From positions 1 through 64,000 of the forward strand of contig JAEKLF010000041.1 of NCBI GenBank assembly GCA_019509985.1: a stretch of 64,000 bases of DNA, in the 5' to 3' direction. The position numbers and the translations under genes are program-made. Below are positions 34,132 through 43,455 of this stretch, piece after piece. How positions within the stretch are numbered: position 1 is the stretch's first letter; each line of letters starts with the position of its first letter. The DNA is from Burkholderiales bacterium (GTDB taxonomy: Bacteria; Pseudomonadota; Gammaproteobacteria; Burkholderiales; Burkholderiaceae_C). The notes below the pieces were generated by a model. That model searched no databases, had not been told where the DNA came from, and was given only the letters and a program-made list of their open reading frames with translations.

Positions 34132-36801
34132 CTATTCCGGTGGCTCGCCCAAAGGCAGTTCAACGCGAACGCAGGCGCCGCCGGTCGGCACATTGTGGGC
34201 GCTGATGCGTCCGCCATGCGCCTCGACGATGGCCTTGCAGATGGCCAGGCCCAGGCCGACGCCGGGCGTGGCGCTCTCGCGGTCGCCGCGCTCGAATTTG
34301 TCGAAGAGCTTTTCCTCGCGACCGGCCGGGAAACCGGGGCCTGAGTCGCTGACGTCGATCTCGACCTGCCGCCCCGCCGCGCGCGCCGCCACACGGATGG
34401 GGCCGCCCGGCGGCGTGTACTTGACGGCGTTCTCCAGCAGGTTGACGAGCACACGCTCGATCAGCACCGCGTCCAGCTCCACCAGCGGCAGCTCGGCCGG
34501 CAGATCCACGGCCACCTCGCGCCCGGCTAGCACCTCGTCCAGGCTGGCGAGCGCGCTGCCCACCACCTCCTGCAGCGGCAGCCAGTGGCGGTTGAGCTGC
34601 ACGGCACCGGACTGCAGCCGCGCCATGTCCAGCAGGTTGGCCACCAGCGCGCTCATGCGCAGCGCGGAGCGGCGCATCGCGTCGGCCACGTCGGCTTGCG
34701 GCGCGTTCAGCGGCGTGAGCTTGAGCGCATCGGCCAGGCCGACGAGGGCGGCCAGCGGCGTGCGCAGGTCGTGCGAGATGGCCGTCAGCAGCGAGTTGCG
34801 CAGGCGCTCGCTCTCGATCTGCAATGTGCTCTGCTGCGCGACCTCGATGTAGTGGATGCGCTCCAGCGAGATGGCCAGCAGCGCCGCGCAGGTGTCCAGC
34901 AGCTCACGGGCCTCGGGCGACCAGCGCCGGCCGGTCCCTTCCACGGCCAGCACGCCGCGCAGGCGCATCGGCGCGGTCAGCGGCAGCATCAGGCAGGGGC
35001 TCGCAGGCAGGGTGTCTGTGCCCTGCCCTGCTGCCTGGGCATGGTCGAAGGCCCATTGGGCGACGCCGAGATCGGGCTGGGCACTGGCGCCAGGCAACAC
35101 GGTCAGCACCTCGTGGCCGGGCGCGTTGCCCAGCGGTGGCGCCAGCACGGCGGATGCGACGCCGAATTCCGCGCGCAGGAAGCGCGTGCCGATCTCGGCG
35201 ACCTGCTCGGGCACCAGCGCCGCGCCCAGGTCGCGCGACATCGCGTAGAGCCCGCGCACGCGGCGCTCGCGCTCCCGGGCGGCGCGCGCCTGCGCCTGCA
35301 GCCCGGCCGCGAGCTGGCCGACGACGAGGCCCACCAGCAGCAGCACGCCGAAGGTGACGAGGTATTGCGCGTCACCCACGGCGAAGGACCAGCGTGGCTC
35401 GACGAAGACGAAGTCAAAGGCCGCCACCCCCAACAACGCCGTCAACGCGGCCGGCGCGCGGCCGAACCACAGCGCGACGCCGACGACGTTGAGCAGGTAG
35501 AGCATCGCGATGTTGGTAGGCGCGATGAAGCTCAGCAACAGCTGGGCGATCAAGGTCGTCAGCGCGACGCCAGCCAGCGACGCCGCATAGCCGCGCAGCG
35601 TGTGCGACGCGATCAGGCCGGGCGGCACCGGCGGGCCGGGCTCGCTCGCACGCATCGTCGTCGGCAACGCGACCTGCAGCACGTCCATCTCGTCAGCCAG
35701 GTGGTTCAGCGCCTCGGCCAGCGTGGGCCGGCCGGGCCAGCGCCAGGCGCGCTCACGGCGGCCGACGACGAGGCGGGCCAGGTTGTGCTCGCGCGCATAG
35801 CCCACCAGCGCGCGGGCCACCTCGGGCGCCGACAGCTCGGCCGTGCGCGCGCCCAGGCTCTGCGCCAGCTCCAGCGTGCGCTGCACGCGCTGGCGCGCCG
35901 CCTCGCTCAACCCGTGTGCCGTCTGCACGTGCACGGCATGCCAGTCCAGCCCGAGCTGCTGGGCCAGGCGCGCGGCGCTGCGCACGACCTTGTCGCTGGC
36001 CGCGCCCGGTCCGACACAGGCGAGCAGCGACTCGCGGTTGGGCCACACCGTGCCGGCGCTGTGCTCGCGCCGGTAGGCCTGCATCTGGTCGTCCACGCGG
36101 TCGGCCGTGCGGCGCAGCGCCAGCTCGCGCAACGCCAGCAGGTTGCCCTTGCGGAAGAAGTTCCTGGCCGCGCGCTCGGCCTGCTGCGGCAGGTAGACCT
36201 TGCCTTCCTTGAGCCGCTGCAGCAGCTCGTCGGGCGGCAGGTCGACGACGACGACCTCGTCGGCATCGTCAAAAACCCTGTCGGGCAGCGTCTCCCAGAC
36301 GCGGATGCCGGTGATGCCGCCGACGACGTCGTTCAGGCTTTCCAGGTGCTGCACGTTCAGCGTCGTCCAGACCTCCACGCCTGCCTCGCGCAGTTCCTGC
36401 GCGTCCTGCCAGCGCTTGGCGTGGCGTGAGCCGGGGGCGTTGCTGTGGGCCAGTTCATCCAGCAGCAGCACGCCGCCGGGCTGCTCGCGGCTCCAGGCCA
36501 GGGCTGCATCGAGGTCGAACTCGCGCAACGTCTGGCCCCGGTGGGCCACGTCCTTCAGCGCCAGCCGCGGCAGGTCGCGGGCTATTGTCTCGGTGTCGGC
36601 GCGGCCATGGGTCTCGACGACGCCGACGCGCACCGCCCTGCCCTGCAGCTGCGCAGCGTGGGCGGCGGCCAACATCGCGAAGGTCTTGCCGACACCGGCG
36701 TTGGCGCCGAAGAAGATCTTCAGCCGGCCACGCCGTGCCGCCGCATCGTCGCGCTGCAGCCGCGCCAGCAGCGCGTCAGGGTCGGGCCGGGCGTCGGTCA
36801 C
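34132..36801 (-). CDS. kdpD: KdpD osmosensitive K+ sensor histidine kinase
   Basis: Inner-membrane sensor kinase of 889 residues that responds to K+ limitation or turgor and controls KdpE. Order: N-terminal KdpD domain with Walker A-like GANAGVGKT, Usp-like domain, a four-helix membrane block (about residues 440-540), GAF-like region, HisKA with His677 (ISHDLRTPLAALVG), HATPase_c with DSGPGF and GLGLAI boxes. The start chosen is GTG at 36801 (VTDARPDPDALLARLQRDD); an earlier start at 36900 adds a less family-like stretch. It is separated from kdpC by corA. Confidence 0.95.
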   Translation of the reverse strand: MTDARPDPDALLARLQRDDAAARRGRLKIFFGANAGVGKTFAMLAAAHAAQLQGRAVRVGVVETHGRADTETIARDLPRLALKDVAHRGQTLREFDLDAALAWSREQPGGVLLLDELAHSNAPGSRHAKRWQDAQELREAGVEVWTTLNVQHLESLNDVVGGITGIRVWETLPDRVFDDADEVVVVDLPPDELLQRLKEGKVYLPQQAERAARNFFRKGNLLALRELALRRTADRVDDQMQAYRREHSAGTVWPNRESLLACVGPGAASDKVVRSAARLAQQLGLDWHAVHVQTAHGLSEAARQRVQRTLELAQSLGARTAELSAPEVARALVGYAREHNLARLVVGRRERAWRWPGRPTLAEALNHLADEMDVLQVALPTTMRASEPGPPVPPGLIASHTLRGYAASLAGVALTTLIAQLLLSFIAPTNIAMLYLLNVVGVALWFGRAPAALTALLGVAAFDFVFVEPRWSFAVGDAQYLVTFGVLLLVGLVVGQLAAGLQAQARAARERERRVRGLYAMSRDLGAALVPEQVAEIGTRFLRAEFGVASAVLAPPLGNAPGHEVLTVLPGASAQPDLGVAQWAFDHAQAAGQGTDTLPASPCLMLPLTAPMRLRGVLAVEGTGRRWSPEARELLDTCAALLAISLERIHYIEVAQQSTLQIESERLRNSLLTAISHDLRTPLAALVGLADALKLTPLNAPQADVADAMRRSALRMSALVANLLDMARLQSGAVQLNRHWLPLQEVVGSALASLDEVLAGREVAVDLPAELPLVELDAVLIERVLVNLLENAVKYTPPGGPIRVAARAAGRQVEIDVSDSGPGFPAGREEKLFDKFERGDRESATPGVGLGLAICKAIVEAHGGRISAHNVPTGGACVRVELPLGEPPE

Positions 36802-36872
36802 AACCCGGATCCGGCAGTTGGGTGCGCCCGAGGGGCTGACGAGGCGGGTCGCAGGCAAGGCGCGATGACGCC

Positions 36873-36888
36873 GTGGGCTCGCGCCCAC
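36873..36888 (-). promoter_or_regulatory. Small hairpin between corA and kdpD
   Basis: GTGGGC at 36873-36878 and GCCCAC at 36883-36888 form a 6-bp stem with a 4-base loop in the 157-base gap between corA (stop at 36959) and kdpD. It could be a weak attenuator or mRNA-stability element; a T-run is absent and the function is inferred. Confidence 0.3.
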
Positions 36889-36958
36889 AAGGAGGAGCAA
36901 CGCCGCCGGCGGCCAGCAGCGCCAGCCCGGCGGGCGTGCCCGACTGGTGGGTCTGGGT

Positions 36959-37930
36959 TCATAGCCACTTCAAGCGCTTGAAGCGCCAGTAGAGCGCGCT
37001 GCTGACGAGCACGATGGCGCCCAGTGCCATCGGGTAGCCGAAGCTCCACTTCAGCTCGGGCATGGTCTCGAAGTTCATGCCCCAGATGCCGGCCAGCGCG
37101 GTGGAGGCGGCAAAGATGGCGGCCCAGGCCGCCAGGCGCTTGGTGACCAGCGACTCATCGATGGTGACCAGCGTCAGGTTGACCTGCGTCGCTGCGATGA
37201 TGGTTTCACGGGCCGCATCGATGCTGGCCTGGATGCGCAGCAGGTGGTCATAGACATCGCGGAAATAGTCCTGCAAGGCCTTGCAGACGACCGGCACGCG
37301 GCCGCCATGCAGCTTGGCCGTCACCTCCAGCAGCGGCGTGACGGCATGGCGCAGCGTGGCCAGGCGCTGCTTCAACGCGAACAGTCGCTGCACGACGGAC
37401 TGGCGGTCCTGGTGGGGCTGGAACATGGTCTCTTCGAGCTGCTCCAGCTCGGCCTCGACCGCATCGATGAGCGGAAAGTAGCGGTCCACGACCGCGTCCA
37501 TCAACGCATAGAAGACGAAGCCCGGCCCCTGGCGCAGCAGATGCGGCTCGCGCTCGGCACGCCCGCGCACACCGAGGAAGCCCTGCTGGCTGTTGTGCCG
37601 CACCGAGACGATGAAGCGCGGCCCGACGAAGACATGCACCTCGCCCACCTGCAGGTCGCCCTCGGGCCCGGCTTCGAGCAGGTGCATCGCGGCGAACAGC
37701 ATGTCGCCGTACTCCTCCACCTTGGGCCGCTGATGGCCCTTGCGCGCGTCCTCGACGGCCAGCGGCGGCAGGTTGAGCTCGCGTTGCAGCAAATTCAGCT
37801 CGTCATCGCCCGGGTCGCGCAGCGCGATCCACACGAAGCCGGACTGGCGCTCCAGCGCCTCGGACACGCCTTCCAGCCCAGGCTCGGCCACGATGCGGCC
37901 ATCGTCGTACACGGCACTGTTGATCAGCAT
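36959..37930 (-). CDS. corA: CorA family Mg2+/Co2+ transporter
   Basis: Inner-membrane divalent-cation channel of 323 residues. A long cytoplasmic domain (coiled coils around DAVEAELEQLEETMFQPHQD) is followed by two C-terminal membrane helices; the ion-selectivity motif GMN appears in AGIWGMNFETMPELKW, and the protein ends RFKRLKWL. It lies between kdpC and kdpD, same strand, 41 bases after kdpC. That is not the usual kdp order, and it places Mg2+ or other cation uptake in the same transcription unit as the K+ pump and its regulators. Confidence 0.94.
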   Translation of the reverse strand: MLINSAVYDDGRIVAEPGLEGVSEALERQSGFVWIALRDPGDDELNLLQRELNLPPLAVEDARKGHQRPKVEEYGDMLFAAMHLLEAGPEGDLQVGEVHVFVGPRFIVSVRHNSQQGFLGVRGRAEREPHLLRQGPGFVFYALMDAVVDRYFPLIDAVEAELEQLEETMFQPHQDRQSVVQRLFALKQRLATLRHAVTPLLEVTAKLHGGRVPVVCKALQDYFRDVYDHLLRIQASIDAARETIIAATQVNLTLVTIDESLVTKRLAAWAAIFAASTALAGIWGMNFETMPELKWSFGYPMALGAIVLVSSALYWRFKRLKWL

Positions 37931-37971: not shown

Positions 37972-38547
37972 CTACCGCGGGAGGGCGTCCAGCGCGAGAT
38001 TGAGGGCCAGCACGTTCACGCGCGGTTCGCCAACGAAGCCCAGCCAGCGGCCTTCGGTGTGCTGCTCCACGAGGGCCTGCACGCGCTCGACCGGCAGGCC
38101 TCGCACGCGGGCGATGCGGGCGAGCTGGTAGTCGGCTGCGGCGCGGCTGATGTGCGGATCCAGCCCGCTGGCCGAGGTCGTCACGAGGTCGACGGGCACG
38201 GCCGCCTGGTTGCCCGGGTCGGCCGCGCGCAAGGCCTCGACGCGAGCCTTGACCGCGACGGTCAGGGCCGGTGCCGTCGGCGCGAGGTTGGAGCCGCCCG
38301 AGTTGGCCGCGTTGTAGGGCATGGGGCCGGTGGCCGACGGGCGGCTCCAGAAGTGGCCGGGGTCGGTGAAGGTCTGGCCGATCAGCTCGGAGCCGACGGG
38401 TTTGCCGTCCTTGGCGACGAGGCTGCCGTTGGCCGCGTGAGGGAACACGGTCTGCGCGACGCCGGTGACGACGAGCGGATAGGCAATGCCGGTGATGAGG
38501 CTGAACAGCACAAAGAGCGTCAGCGCGGGGCGGAGCTGGGTATTCAT
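37972..38547 (-). CDS. kdpC: KdpC, potassium-transporting ATPase subunit C
   Basis: Single-span inner-membrane subunit of the KdpFABC high-affinity K+ pump, 191 residues. An N-terminal transmembrane helix ([21 protein letters not shown]) leads into the periplasmic domain with [15 protein letters not shown] and NSGGSN motifs. It starts five bases after kdpB ends, so the two are coupled. It is followed by corA. Confidence 0.97.
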
Positions 38548-38552
38548 GGCGT

Positions 38553-40688
38553 TCAGACCAGGTGAAAGGCGACGAGCAGCAGGTCGATGGCCTTGATGCC
38601 GATGAAGGGCACGATGACGCCGCCCAAGCCGTAGACCAGCAGGTTGCGGCGCAGCAGGGCCGCGGCGCCGATGGCGCGGTAGCGCACGCCCTTCAGGGCC
38701 AGCGGGATCAGCACGACGATGATCAGTGCATTGAAGATGACCGCGCTCAGGATGGCCGAGTTGGGGCTGGCCAGGCGCATGACGTTCAGCGCGGCCAGTT
38801 GCGGATAGGTCGACACGAAGGCGGCCGGCAGCACGGCGAAGTACTTGGCCAGGTCGTTGGCGATGCTGAAGGTCGTCAGCGAGCCGCGGGTCATCAGCAT
38901 CTGCTTGCCGGTCTCGACGACCTCGATGAGCTTGGTCGGGTTGCTGTCCAGGTCGACCATGTTGCCGGCCTCTTTCGCAGCCTGCGTGCCGGTGTTCATC
39001 GCGACGGCCACGTCGGCCTGGGCCAGCGCGGGCGCGTCGTTGGTGCCGTCGCCCGTCATGGCCACGAGACGGCCCTGGGCCTGGTGCTCGCGGATCAGCG
39101 TCAGCTTGGCTTCGGGCGTGGCCTCGGCGAGAAAATCATCCACGCCGGCCTCGGCGGCAATGGCGGCGGCCGTCAGTCGGTTGTCGCCGGTGACCATGAT
39201 CGTCTTGATGCCCATGCGGCGCAGCTGGGCGAAGCGCTCCTTGATGCCGGGCTTGACGATGTCCTTGAGCTCGACGACGCCCAGCACCTGGGCATTGTCG
39301 GCGACGACCAGCGGCGTGCTGCCGCGGCGACCGGCCTCGTCCACCTTGGCCTGCACGCTGGCGGACCAGCGGCCGCCCAGCGCCTCGACGTGCGCACGCA
39401 CCGCGCTTCCGGCGCCCTTGCGGATCTGGCGCGCGCCAAGGTCGACACCGCTCATGCGCGTCTGCGCCGTGAAGGGCACGAAGAGGCTCTGCTCCATCGC
39501 CGCTGGCTTTGCGTCGAACTTGCGGTCGGCCAGCGCGACGATGCTTCGGCCTTCGGGCGTCTCGTCGGCGATCGAGGCCAGACGTGCCGCCTCGGCCAGC
39601 TGGGCTTCGCTGGCACCGTCCACGGGCCAGAAGGCATCGGCCTGGCGATTGCCCAGCGTGATGGTGCCGGTCTTGTCCAGCAACAGCACATCGACGTCAC
39701 CGGCCGCCTCGACGGCACGGCCCGAGGTGGCGATGACGTTGGCCTGCAGCATGCGGCTCATGCCGGCCACGCCGACGGCCGACAGCAGACCGGCGATGGT
39801 GGTCGGGATCAGGCAGACGAGCAGCGCGACGAGCACGACAAGGCTGACCGGCCGGCCAGCGCCCGCCACGGCCACGCTGAACTGCGAGAACGGCAGCAAC
39901 GTGGCGCAGACGCCCAGGAACACCAGGGTCAGCGCGACCAGCAGGATGGTCAGCGCGATCTCGTTGGGTGTGCGCTTGCGTTGCGCGCCCTCGACCATCG
40001 CGATCATGCGGTCGACGAAGGTCTCGCCCGGGTTCACGGCCACGCGGGCGACGACCCAGTCGGACAGCACACGGGTGCCGCCGGTCAGCGCCGAGAAGTC
40101 GCCGCCGCTCTCGCGGATGACGGGGGCCGATTCGCCGGTGATGGCGCTTTCGTCCACCGACGCGACACCCTCGATGACCTCGGCGTCCGCCGGGACGACA
40201 TCGCCGGCCACGATCAGCACGACCTCGCCCTTGCGCAGCGTGCCCGCCTCGCGCGGATGCCATTGCAGGGACTCGCGCGCGACACCGGGCTTCCAGCCTT
40301 CGGCGACCTTGGCCCAGGTTTCCTTCTTGAGCCCGCGCAGCGACGCGGCCTGCGCTTTGCTGCGGCCCTCGGCCAGCGCCTCGGCGAAGTTGGCGAACAG
40401 CACGGTGAACCACAGCCACACGGTCACCGCGACGACGAAGCCGTTGGGTTGGGCGATGGACAGCGCCGTCGTCAGCAGGCTGCCCAGGTAGACGACGAAC
40501 ATCACCGGGTTGCGCAGTTGCGTGCGCGGATCCAGCTTGCGCAAGGCGTCGACCAGGGCCGAACGGGTCAGCGCCGGGTCGAGCAGGGAAAAACCAGCGC
40601 GGGTCTCAAGAGAGCGACGGGCCGCTCCCGAGCTCTCTTGACCCCCTTGGGGGGCCTGGCGTGCAGCGACAGGTTTGGGGGCGTTCAT
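38553..40688 (-). CDS. kdpB: KdpB, P-type ATPase subunit
   Basis: Catalytic P-type ATPase subunit of the Kdp pump, 711 residues. The phospho-acceptor Asp338 is in [18 protein letters not shown]-like actuator motif [22 protein letters not shown] and [12 protein letters not shown] hinge motifs are all present, with about seven membrane helices. The N-terminus carries an extra, basic 40-residue stretch. The ATG at 40688 overlaps the kdpA stop by four bases. Confidence 0.98.
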
Positions 40689-42484
40689 GACTGTGCGCTC
40701 CAGAGGATCAATTGCTCGACGACCGGCCCCAAGGCCAGCGCCGGCACATAGTTCAGAAGACCGACCAGCAGCACGACGCCGATCAGCAGCACGATGAAGA
40801 GCGGGCCATGCGTGGGCAGCGTGCCCTCGCCGGGGGCCAGGCGCTTCTTGGCCGCCAGTGAGCCGGCCATGGCCAGCACCGGCACGATGACGCCGAAGCG
40901 GCCGATCCACATGACCAAGGCCAGCAGCAGGTTGTAGAAGGGCGTGTTGGCCGACAGGCCGGCAAAGGCGCTACCGTTGTTGTTGCCGGCCGACGAGAGT
41001 GCGTACAGCACCTCACTGAAGCCATGCGCGCCCGGGGCAGCGATGCCGGCCTTGCCCGGCTCCATGACGACCGCGATCGCCGTGCCGATCAGCACCGCCA
41101 GTGGCGTCAGCAGGATGGCCAGCGACACCATCTTCATGTCAAACGCCGCGATCTTCTTGCCCATGTACTCGGGCGTGCGGCCGATCATCAGGCCGGCGAC
41201 GAAGACGGCCAGGATGGCGAACACCAGCATGCCGTACAGGCCCGCGCCGACACCGCCGAAGACGACCTCGCCGAGCTGCATCATGACCATCGGTACAAGG
41301 CCGCCAACCGGTGTGAAGCTGTCGTGCATCGCATTGACGGCGCCGCAGCTGGCGGCCGTCGTGATGACGGCGAACAGCGACGAGGCTGCGATGCCGAAGC
41401 GCGCCTCCTTGCCTTCCATGTTGCCGCCCGGCTGCGTGGCGCTGGCCGTGGCATCCACACCCAGCGAAGCTAGACGCGGGTTGCCGGCCTGCTCGGCCGC
41501 AGTCGCGACGACGACCGCGACGACGAACATCGCCGTCATCGCGCCCAGCAAGGCCCAGCCCTGCCGCATGTCGCCCACTTGGCGGCCCAGCACGAAGCAC
41601 AGCGCCGCCGGGATCAGGAAGATGGACAGCATCTGCAGCGCATTGGTCGCCGCCGAGGGGTTCTCGAAGGGATGGGCCGAGTTCGCGTTGAAGAAGCCAC
41701 CACCGTTGGTGCCCAGCATCTTGATGGCCAGCTGCGACGCGACGGGGCCCAGCGCGATGCTCTGGCTCTGGGCGCTCTTGTCTTGCATGACGGGTTGACC
41801 CTCCGCGCCCTTCAGTGGCTGACCGGCGGCGTCGACCTTGGGCTCCTGCCAGCTTTGCGCTTCGATGGTTGTCACGTCCTGGTAGGGCTTGAGCGTCTGC
41901 ACGACGCCCATGCCGGCCAGCACGAGCGCAAACACGAAGGACAGTGGCAGCAGCACCCACAGCGTGGCGCGAGTCAGGTCCGCCCAGACATTGCCGATGG
42001 CCTGGGCACTGTGGCGGGCGAAGCCGCGCACCAGCGCGATGACGACAGCGATGCCGGTGGCGGCGGACAGGAAGTTCTGTACCGTCAGCGCGAGCATCTG
42101 CGTCAGGTAGCTCATCGTTGTCTCGCCGCCATAGCCCTGCCAGTTCGTGTTGGTGACGAAGCTGACGGCGGTATTGAAAGCCGAATCCGGTGTCACAGCG
42201 CCCATGCCCTGGGGGTTAAGCGGCAGGTACTGCTGCAGTCGCTGCAGCGCATAGACGGCCACGACGCCGAGGGCATTGAAGATCAGCAGGCCAAGGGCAT
42301 AGCGCAGCCAGCCCTGCTCGGCGTCGGCATCGACGCCAGCCAACTTCAGCAGGCCACGCTCGGCGCGGCGCAGCCAGCCGATGCGGCCTTCCATCGCGGC
42401 GTGAATCCAGCGAGCCAGCGGCCAGGCCAGCGCGAGCAGCACGACGAGGAAAGCGATCAACTGCATCCAGGCGGAGGCACTCAT
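40685..42484 (-). CDS. kdpA: KdpA, K+-translocating subunit
   Basis: Inner-membrane K+ channel-like subunit of 599 residues, ten membrane helices. The four pore-loop repeats include [15 protein letters not shown] and [19 protein letters not shown], with [11 protein letters not shown] later. It is coupled to kdpF (ATGA, 42481-42484) and to kdpB. Normal length for KdpA (about 560-600). Confidence 0.98.
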
Positions 42485-42573
42485 GACAAGTCCTCCGGAA
42501 ACAGCAGCGCCCAGAACAGATAGCCGATCAACCCGACGATGAGCACAGCCGCGGCGAGTTCGAAGCCGGTCAT
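42481..42573 (-). CDS. kdpF: KdpF small membrane subunit
   Basis: A 30-residue single-helix peptide, [20 protein letters not shown] and then [10 protein letters not shown], the usual KdpF size and C-terminal FPE motif. It stabilises the KdpABC complex. Its ATG overlaps the stop of the preceding 31-residue ORF (ATGA), and its own stop overlaps kdpA, so all are translated as a chain. Confidence 0.93.
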
Positions 42574-42665
42574 GACTTCCGCCTTGCCAGGCGTTCGCAG
42601 CCCCAGGCCGCGAGCCCGGTCAACAGCGCGAGAGCCGCGCCCAGACCCAGAAAAACGATGTCCAT
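42570..42665 (-). CDS. Small membrane peptide ahead of kdpF (31 aa)
   Basis: An unannotated-looking ORF of 31 residues, starting [20 protein letters not shown] and ending [11 protein letters not shown]. It has one hydrophobic helix and a basic C-terminus. A very strong Shine-Dalgarno GGAGGTGTC abuts the ATG at 42665, while kdpF itself has no such site and overlaps this stop by four bases. It therefore likely drives translation of kdpF and heads the kdp operon. It may be a second KdpF-like subunit or a short regulatory peptide. It is too short for routine gene calling. Confidence 0.6.
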
Positions 42666-42736
42666 GACACCTCCATAACGATGGAAGTGATTCTGAAAAT
42701 CTCGCCCTCAAAGCCTCGACAAGATCGAAGCGAGGG

Positions 42737-42756
42737 GCATCAAGAAAGCATCAAGA
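42737..42756 (-). promoter_or_regulatory. Direct repeat, possible KdpE operator
   Basis: GCATCAAGA occurs at 42737-42745 and again at 42748-42756 (TCTTGATGC on the operon strand), spaced 11 bases centre to centre, one helical turn. OmpR-family regulators such as KdpE bind such tandem direct repeats. The repeats lie about 72 bases upstream of the first kdp-operon start codon and overlap the end of ribE. Binding by KdpE is inferred, not shown. Confidence 0.4.
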
Positions 42757-43455
42757 TTTGGGCAGCGCGAGCTGAGTGAGGTCGATGCCGCGCTCCTTGG
42801 CGATGGCTTCGAGCACCGGCAGCAGCGGCCCCAGCTTCTCGTCCAGCGCGTCGCGCACCGTGTCGACGACGACCTGGGTGCTGCGTTCGATCTCGATGTG
42901 CGCGCCGTCACCCACCACCTTGTCGGCGAAGGTGGTCATGCGCAGCGTTTCGGGGATGAGCCAGACCTCGAACCAGCCCGAGCCGTCGCGCTCGCGCTGG
43001 GCTTCTGCCACAGTGAGGCTGCAGCCGTTGACGGCGATGTAGCCCTTGGCGAAGACATAGCGCATCCACGGCGCAGGCAGCGCGAAGCGGATGACGCGGT
43101 TGTTGTCCGGCGTGCGGATCTCGGCGATGCGGGCCGACACGTCGACATGGCCGGACAGCGGGTGGCCGCCGATCTCGGCGCCGTCCCTAGCGGCGCGCTC
43201 GACGTTCAGACCCGAGCCGACGCTCAAGGCCCCCAGCGTCGTCAGCTTCAGCGTCTGCGCCATCACGTCGAACAGCGCCAGGTCGGGCGACGGCCGTTCG
43301 GTGACAGTCAGGCAGACGCCGTCGCAGGACACGCTGGCGCCGATGGCCAGCTCGTCGTCGAAGCCGGCCGGCAGCTTCAACGCCAAGGTGTGCAGGCCCT
43401 CGCGGGCCGAGATGGATTCGACGCGGGCGACGCCTTGGACGATGCCGGTGAACAT
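42751..43455 (-). CDS. ribE: Riboflavin synthase
   Basis: Cytoplasmic enzyme that dismutates two lumazine molecules to riboflavin, 234 residues. It has two lumazine-binding repeats: [15 protein letters not shown] with SVSCDGVCLTV in the first and GHPLSGHVDVSARI with VNGCSLTVAE in the second. The N-terminal MFTGIVQ is diagnostic. Start overlaps the stop of the ArsC-family gene by one base. It is not in a rib operon here, which is common in Burkholderiales. Confidence 0.97.
   Translation of the reverse strand: MFTGIVQGVARVESISAREGLHTLALKLPAGFDDELAIGASVSCDGVCLTVTERPSPDLALFDVMAQTLKLTTLGALSVGSGLNVERAARDGAEIGGHPLSGHVDVSARIAEIRTPDNNRVIRFALPAPWMRYVFAKGYIAVNGCSLTVAEAQRERDGSGWFEVWLIPETLRMTTFADKVVGDGAHIEIERSTQVVVDTVRDALDEKLGPLLPVLEAIAKERGIDLTQLALPKS

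Follow-up and report, generated by a model that had tools for sequence, protein, structure and literature searches.

KdpFABC is a model P-type ATPase, and the structural work known to us (PMC12629597 is one example by its title) was conducted on the Escherichia coli complex. CydX, TorE/NapE and further small accessory proteins such as AcrZ and MgtS are very small, have one helix each, and are encoded next to a large membrane complex. The gene described here, which we refer to as U, encodes a protein of this kind; we know of no sequence relation between U and any of the four. U differs from them in its putative partner, a P-type ATPase complex for which one small subunit is already known. PMC6134056 discusses TorE (TorE/NapE) and CydX as small proteins of membrane complexes and describes KdpF as dispensable in vivo in E. 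coli. Like U, KdpF (PF09604, TIGR02115) is a protein of ∼30 residues with one membrane helix, encoded in the kdp operon, which is a likeness of kind and not of family membership.

A kdpZ is present in Alicyclobacillus, and in the 1997 paper on the kdp genes of Clostridium acetobutylicum Z and Y are reportedly small hydrophobic peptides. KdpZ (orfZ) of C. acetobutylicum is, like U, the first of two (reportedly small) ORFs directly before kdpA and, judged by gene arrangement alone, it is the closest named precedent for U. The U-kdpF arrangement is the same as Z-Y, and KdpZ may therefore have its proteobacterial counterpart in U. The C. acetobutylicum order Z-Y-A-B-C, in a single transcript kdpZYABCXDE made under K+ limitation, is mentioned in a paper on M. 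smegmatis (PMC5401905). Beyond this mention, the U family is undescribed in the accessible parts of the open-licence papers searched, including PMC8552747, PMC6375644, PMC6488665, and PMC5716572, and likewise in those of PMC10903887, PMC11364881, PMC6134056, and PMC4101177; the main text of PMC10117765 contains neither "kdp" nor "potassium." Tiny accessory subunits of membrane complexes are a known kind; within the open-licence literature and the models searched, U is nowhere described as a widespread family.

U at the head of the kdp operon

The window (the whole stretch of 64,000 nucleotides that was analyzed) carries on its minus strand, in this order, a ribE-like gene, U, kdpF, kdpA, kdpB, kdpC, a CorA-family gene, and kdpD. 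As the preliminary description had reported, U (42570..42665, minus strand) is an ORF of 31 codons from its ATG at the operon head, and its TGA shares 4 nt (ATGA) with the ATG of kdpF (42481..42573; PF09604 E=3.7e-6, TIGR02115 E=1.5e-7). In turn, kdpF overlaps kdpA (40685..42484) by 4 nt, and kdpA overlaps kdpB (38553..40688, with the start taken at the ATG at 40688) by 4 nt (ATGA). Further downstream, and likewise on the minus strand, are kdpC (37972..38547) and the sensor kinase gene kdpD (34132..36900, the longest ORF), with the CorA-family Mg2+ transporter-like gene (36959-37930; PF01544 E=1.1e-55) between them; the ribE-like gene, which encodes lumazine-binding domains, lies upstream of U at 42751-43455. 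The Shine-Dalgarno (SD) sequence of U, GGAGGT at 42669..42674 on the minus strand, gave the strongest duplex with the canonical anti-SD among the five kdp starts tested, at -13.1 kcal/mol compared with -9.5 for kdpA, -6.9 for kdpF, -5.6 for kdpB, and -2.7 for kdpC, in agreement with the earlier claim that it is the strongest of the operon; random 22-mers reached -11.4 kcal/mol at the 1% level. The U profile described below matches the window's U at E=2.5e-10, and from the sequence we infer that U is translated.

The protein encoded by U is acidic at its N end, hydrophobic in the middle, and basic at its C end. The single membrane helix that had been claimed for it was recovered both from hydropathy, with a best 19-residue Kyte-Doolittle mean of 2.13, and from an AlphaFold2 prediction (27-row alignment), in which U is a single helix over residues 2-30 with a mean pLDDT of 90.9. 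Because the N end is acidic and the C end is basic, the layout suggests an orientation with the N terminus out and the C terminus in; the C end is more positively charged than the N end in 146 of the 158 U members identified below. Among these 158 members, where the position is occupied, the conserved residues of the N-terminal half are D2 (93%), F/Y/W at position 5 (84%), and F/L at position 12 (87%), and those of the C-terminal half are C23 (65%), E/D24 (53%), R/K25 (75%), and L26 (91%), giving the consensus M-D-x-x-[FYW]-L ... [GA]-C-[ED]-[RK]-L; past residue 26, the tail is variable and often basic. Two loci (L010 and L013) carry a 58-residue form of U upstream of kdpF, with the same helix and an inserted Pro/Gly-rich tail.

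The window's U was matched by no KdpF model (PF09604, TIGR02115). When 50 U members were run against the models, with curated cut-offs compared for the first member only, a single member weakly matched a KdpF model (NF011326, E=0.021), and PF09604 and TIGR02115 gave nothing at E<=0.1. Further, alignment of the U profile with the KdpF profiles of the same loci by hhalign gave a probability of 7.0% over 9 columns, and therefore U is not a recognizable KdpF copy; the conserved residues of the two proteins also differ. The same 50 members gave no convincing family (best Pfam E=0.0077, best NCBIfam E=0.02), and the U profile had no match below E=1 among PDB sequences. A GDT1 match of the window's U (E=0.02, 15.7 bits compared with a cut-off of 27) was taken as chance. 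A U-like ORF is present in eight plasmid records with gene annotation (in three of them it was called by eye), and none of the eight lists it as a gene, the PLSDB gene tables being incomplete.

Distribution and conservation of U

The regions upstream of kdpA were taken from 30 loci of relatives, 80 phylum-wide (Pseudomonadota) loci, and 80 loci on named genome contigs; this last set holds the 80 top-scoring loci out of a larger total and is therefore biased to close relatives. The phylum set comprises 80 of 91 kdpA genomes: G000, G042, and the fragmented G144 were left out before looking, as were eight same-genus genomes (G180, G114, G277, G201, G207, G169, G255, and G304). L001-L003 are outside the counts, as are the second kdp copies of G012 and G019, which lay outside the fetched loci; L007 and L114, apparently one record, were both counted, and L156 (96 nt upstream) and L030 (a run of N), in which U could scarcely have been detected, were scored as lacking it. 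G012 and G019, from the same genus, each have two kdp loci, each with its own U.

The cut-off for U was the top control score, 13.3 bits, obtained with Markov-resampled DNA; the antisense-strand control reached 6.5 bits. An iterated U profile, trained on these same loci, scored above 13.3 bits in 150 of 190 kdp loci, corresponding to 27/30 relatives, 47/80 phylum loci, and 76/80 of the best 80 named contigs, and eight further ORFs in the right place (6.8-12.7 bits) were added by eye to give 158/190. With cross-trained profiles, U was found in 47/80 phylum loci (45 were checked and are the same ORF), 27/30 relatives, and 71/80 of the best 80 named contigs. The preliminary description had named absence of the peptide from close relatives as the finding that would count against it, and the kdp loci of 27 of the 30 relatives carry U. 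Below the cut-off were 33 of the 80 phylum loci, or 26 after the by-eye additions, of which nine belong to family f32, nine to f35, three to f34, and five are single loci; hence 18 of the 26 come from two gammaproteobacterial families, which from their KdpF sequences we read as Pseudomonas-like (f32) and enterobacteria-like (f35). A Pseudomonas sp. TH31 record (L122), with a KdpA 70% identical to that of the window, carries U. In E. coli K-12, no U was found: the best U score in 15 frames was 0.8 bits, and KdpF was detected at 20.3. Because E. coli K-12 and many phylum loci have no U, Kdp works without it.

Among 18 plasmid loci (L194-L211), eight carry U by profile (>13.3 bits; L195, L197, L198, L201, L203, L208, L209, and L210), from Rhizobium, Azospirillum, Acidithiobacillus, Burkholderia, Bacillus badius, Subdoligranulum, and two Deinococcus species. 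In three more (L196, L202, and L211, from Sinorhizobium medicae, Listeria innocua, and Roseateles sp. XES5), U was called by eye only, with profile scores of at most 4.0 or not listed. The remaining seven, from Halobacterium, Picosynechococcus, Staphylococcus, Niallia, Lactiplantibacillus, Enterococcus, and Ideonella, are without U. U thus lies ahead of kdpF in some Bacillota plasmids, by profile in Bacillus badius and Subdoligranulum and by eye in Listeria innocua.

Whole-genome searches were conducted with a profile of 50 U members, some of them drawn from the searched genomes. In 60 relatives, with up to 136 candidates scored per genome, there were 29 matches in 27 genomes at E<=4.4e-5, all within ∼200 nt upstream of kdpA, and the next match was at E=0.0086; U was present in 27 of 30 kdpA-bearing relatives compared with 0 of 30 kdpA-less relatives (none at E<0.001). 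Similarly, in 249 Pseudomonadota, with at most 32 candidates scored per genome, 52 matches were obtained in 51 genomes at E<=0.001; for 50 of these, in 49 genomes, a kdpA follows within 500 nt. Of the other two, one (G167) is on a contig that ends just past U-kdpF, and the other (G252), the sole match with no kdp gene nearby, is part of a frame of 611 codons. Given this limit of 32 candidates, and because U genes known from the loci were missed (for example, those of G247, G228, and G141), the specificity figure of the 249-genome search is not exhaustive, and weak copies elsewhere may have escaped it. In the genomes searched, U sequences occur in kdp loci and not elsewhere, a genomic association with the pump genes as strict as would be expected of an accessory subunit.

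Selection on U was measured as pN/pS in the window's genus, initially in 15 of 18 loci (L010, L013, and L017 being left out, the first two for their 58-codon form of U), with L017 added later. For nine 31-codon sequences, window included, pN/pS was 0.357, and for six 35-codon sequences it was 0.366; adding the more diverged L017 to the 31-codon group raised it to 0.426, and removing the two codons that touch kdpF from this larger set gave 0.397. In the two groups, and with L017 added, 0 of 300 column shuffles were as low. The positive control, kdpF, gave 0.254 in the 31-codon group and 0.316 in the 35-codon group, and three pseudo-frames in the 48 nt upstream of U gave 0.84-1.04 and 0.87-1.00, respectively. 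Because the pN/pS of U is low compared with values near 1 upstream, the peptide is conserved more than the DNA, whereas the sequence of a leader peptide would be free to vary. At the level of predicted protein sequence, the conservation of U is shown from the genus to a large part of the Pseudomonadota loci sampled, and related sequences occur on plasmids of Bacillota and Deinococcota.

Gene order and leader signals

Over the 158 loci with U, exactly 4 nt of overlap with kdpF was found in 99, a 1-nt overlap in 14, and a U ending 0-25 nt before kdpF in 37; in L123 and L058, U stops 86 nt and 92 nt before kdpF, respectively. KdpF is also present in 156 of the 158; L164 and, by eye, L108 carry U with no kdpF visible to the profile. 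The order is kdpF-U-kdpA in four loci (L029, L102, L106, and L208; L102 and L106 are from one genus, and the U of L106 was called by eye), and in plasmids of D. radiodurans and D. ficus it is kdpB-U-kdpF-kdpA-kdpC, with U inside the gene cluster. A leader would be expected to precede the genes it regulates wherever it occurs, and these four loci and two Deinococcus plasmids do not have U in that position. Consistent with this, the proposal that U is a leader coupling K+ signals to translation found no support as its main role. L208 is the second kdp locus of Burkholderia stagnalis plas1, and its KdpA shares 51% identity with the Bacillus badius protein, which suggests transfer between distant groups.

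The preliminary description had also held that kdpF translation depends on U, and this was not confirmed. The claim rests on the weak kdpF SD of this one genome, whereas GGAGG or AGGAGG precedes kdpF in 15 of the 18 genus loci, the window being among the three exceptions. Further, an Ideonella dechloratans plasmid (L194, 740-1010) has a genus-like leader, with repeats, a hairpin, and a U-like SD, directly before kdpF, and U itself is gone, an apparent natural loss. The order changes, the kdpF SDs, and the Ideonella loss are what would be expected if U acts in trans as a protein and its translation is linked to that of its neighbors only as a convenience; given the 4-nt overlap in 99 of 158 loci, U-kdpF coupling of this sort is plausible.

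In the window, two TCTTGATGC direct repeats 11 bp apart (42737..42756, minus strand) overlap the stop codon of the ribE-like gene; TCTTGAT-type direct repeats 11 bp apart are common to the genus leaders and plausibly represent a candidate KdpE (OmpR-type) box. Nearer to U, a predicted hairpin of 9 bp with a CGTT loop (42668..42689, minus strand) holds the U SD in its 3' arm, with a z of -2.61 for a 51-nt stretch (6 of 200 shuffles were as stable). A hairpin over the U SD recurs in most genus leaders, L017 being without it, and folding at the 18 genus U starts gave a mean z of -1.72, with 14 of 18 below -1.5, compared with -0.64 at kdpF and -0.48 at kdpA; at the 140 other U starts, the mean z was -0.78, with 37 below -1.5. 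When the SD half was held fixed in 99 representative loci, U starts gave a mean z of -0.45 (se 0.13; 15/99 at p<=0.05), and the same method gave 0.00 for kdpF starts (5/98 at p<=0.05) and -0.04 for kdpA starts (4/44). In these 99 loci, pairing of the U SD region was about that of shuffles (6.23 versus 5.92 bases), and SD pairing in the genus was about that elsewhere (0.58 versus 0.57). None of five pairs of the SD hairpin was compensatory among 16 distinct genus leaders, Rfam gave no match at E<=1 in 42300-42900, and a sigma-70 scan of 42600-42850 found no promoter. A terminator-like site over the U start (42671-42657) was taken as chance, shuffles averaging 0.4. The recurring genus hairpin may leave room for translational control. 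In Caulobacter, kdp is under post-transcriptional control, with possible Rho attenuation near kdpF, according to PMC8552747.

Possible roles of U

U appears to be a genuine gene, conserved widely, whose product is a membrane protein with one helix. From its genomic association, we consider it probable that U acts on KdpFABC beside KdpF, either as a second accessory subunit with a single helix or as a regulator closely tied to the complex. U would bind KdpA/KdpB (or KdpF) in the membrane, its helix packing on the membrane part of the complex so as to stabilize or tune the pump, and the 4-nt overlap with kdpF would help to balance synthesis of the small subunits. By analogy, U likely works similarly to KdpF in stabilizing or tuning the pump and, because KdpF, the model small subunit, is dispensable in vivo in E. 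coli, it may have only a mild role. The preliminary description had offered either a second small subunit or a leader, and it is the subunit half that gained support, from conservation, from selection at the protein level, and from confinement to kdp as far as searched; the leader half did not.

Much the same distribution, and the shared operon, would be seen if U were instead a membrane peptide with a regulatory action on KdpD or on some other membrane partner, made from the operon and feeding back on signaling without being part of the pump. MgrB and PhoQ exemplify such a pairing of membrane peptide and sensor kinase. The abstract of PMC3618439 presents such kinase-interacting membrane peptides as an emerging class. 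However, the reordered loci, compared for the positions of U, kdpF, and kdpA, keep U adjoining kdpF or kdpA, and we regard a regulator of KdpD as unlikely. That U is a duplicated and diverged KdpF is very unlikely: the two are of equal size, have a single helix each, and are encoded by neighboring genes, but the profile-profile probability, the differing conserved residues, and the KdpF-model searches given above (1 weak match among 50 members) argue against this reading.

U could also be a leader ORF only, whose translation opens the SD hairpin and feeds kdpF by termination-reinitiation, its amino acid sequence being irrelevant. The strong U SD within a predicted hairpin, the prevalence of the 4-nt overlap, the weak kdpF SD of this genome, and the folding at U starts in excess of shuffles, not seen at kdpF or kdpA starts, would all be expected of such a leader. 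They are set against a pN/pS of 0.36-0.43, kdpF SDs that are good in most of the genus, U genes ending 86 and 92 nt short of kdpF, and a hairpin with no compensatory pairs and an SD region paired about as in shuffles. With U placed after kdpF in four loci and behind kdpB, ahead of kdpF, in the two Deinococcus plasmids, a pure leader is highly improbable. Small hydrophobic peptides are often toxin-like or tune membrane potential, and U might similarly be a stand-alone K+-stress membrane peptide that merely shares the promoter; however, in the 60 relatives and the 249 genomes (at most 32 candidates each in the latter), no U was found away from kdp except for the match within a long frame, and we give this explanation hardly any credence.

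A broader version of the accessory-subunit reading, which we put forward tentatively, is that in many Proteobacteria and some Bacillota and Deinococcota, Kdp is a five-subunit KdpUFABC, in which a fifth, single-helix subunit regulates or stabilizes the P-type ATPase and to which, in the window's genus, hairpin gating may add. Such a subunit would have been missed because E. coli is without U and annotation skips it. If U is a subunit, the textbook E. coli complex would be a reduced form, and the role of the small Kdp helices could be tested by comparing U-plus with U-minus pumps. Further, the U profile could join annotation libraries, the present Pfam and NCBIfam models having missed the 50 members tested.

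Other small reading frames were seen within plasmid kdp loci. The Acidithiobacillus ferrooxidans plasmid (L201, 746-886) has, in addition to U and KdpF, an extra 46-residue hydrophobic ORF, annotated as hypothetical, between kdpF and kdpA, and the annotation of Rhizobium johnstonii pRL11 (L195) places a small hypothetical ORF of 51 aa at 2579-2734, between kdpA and kdpB.
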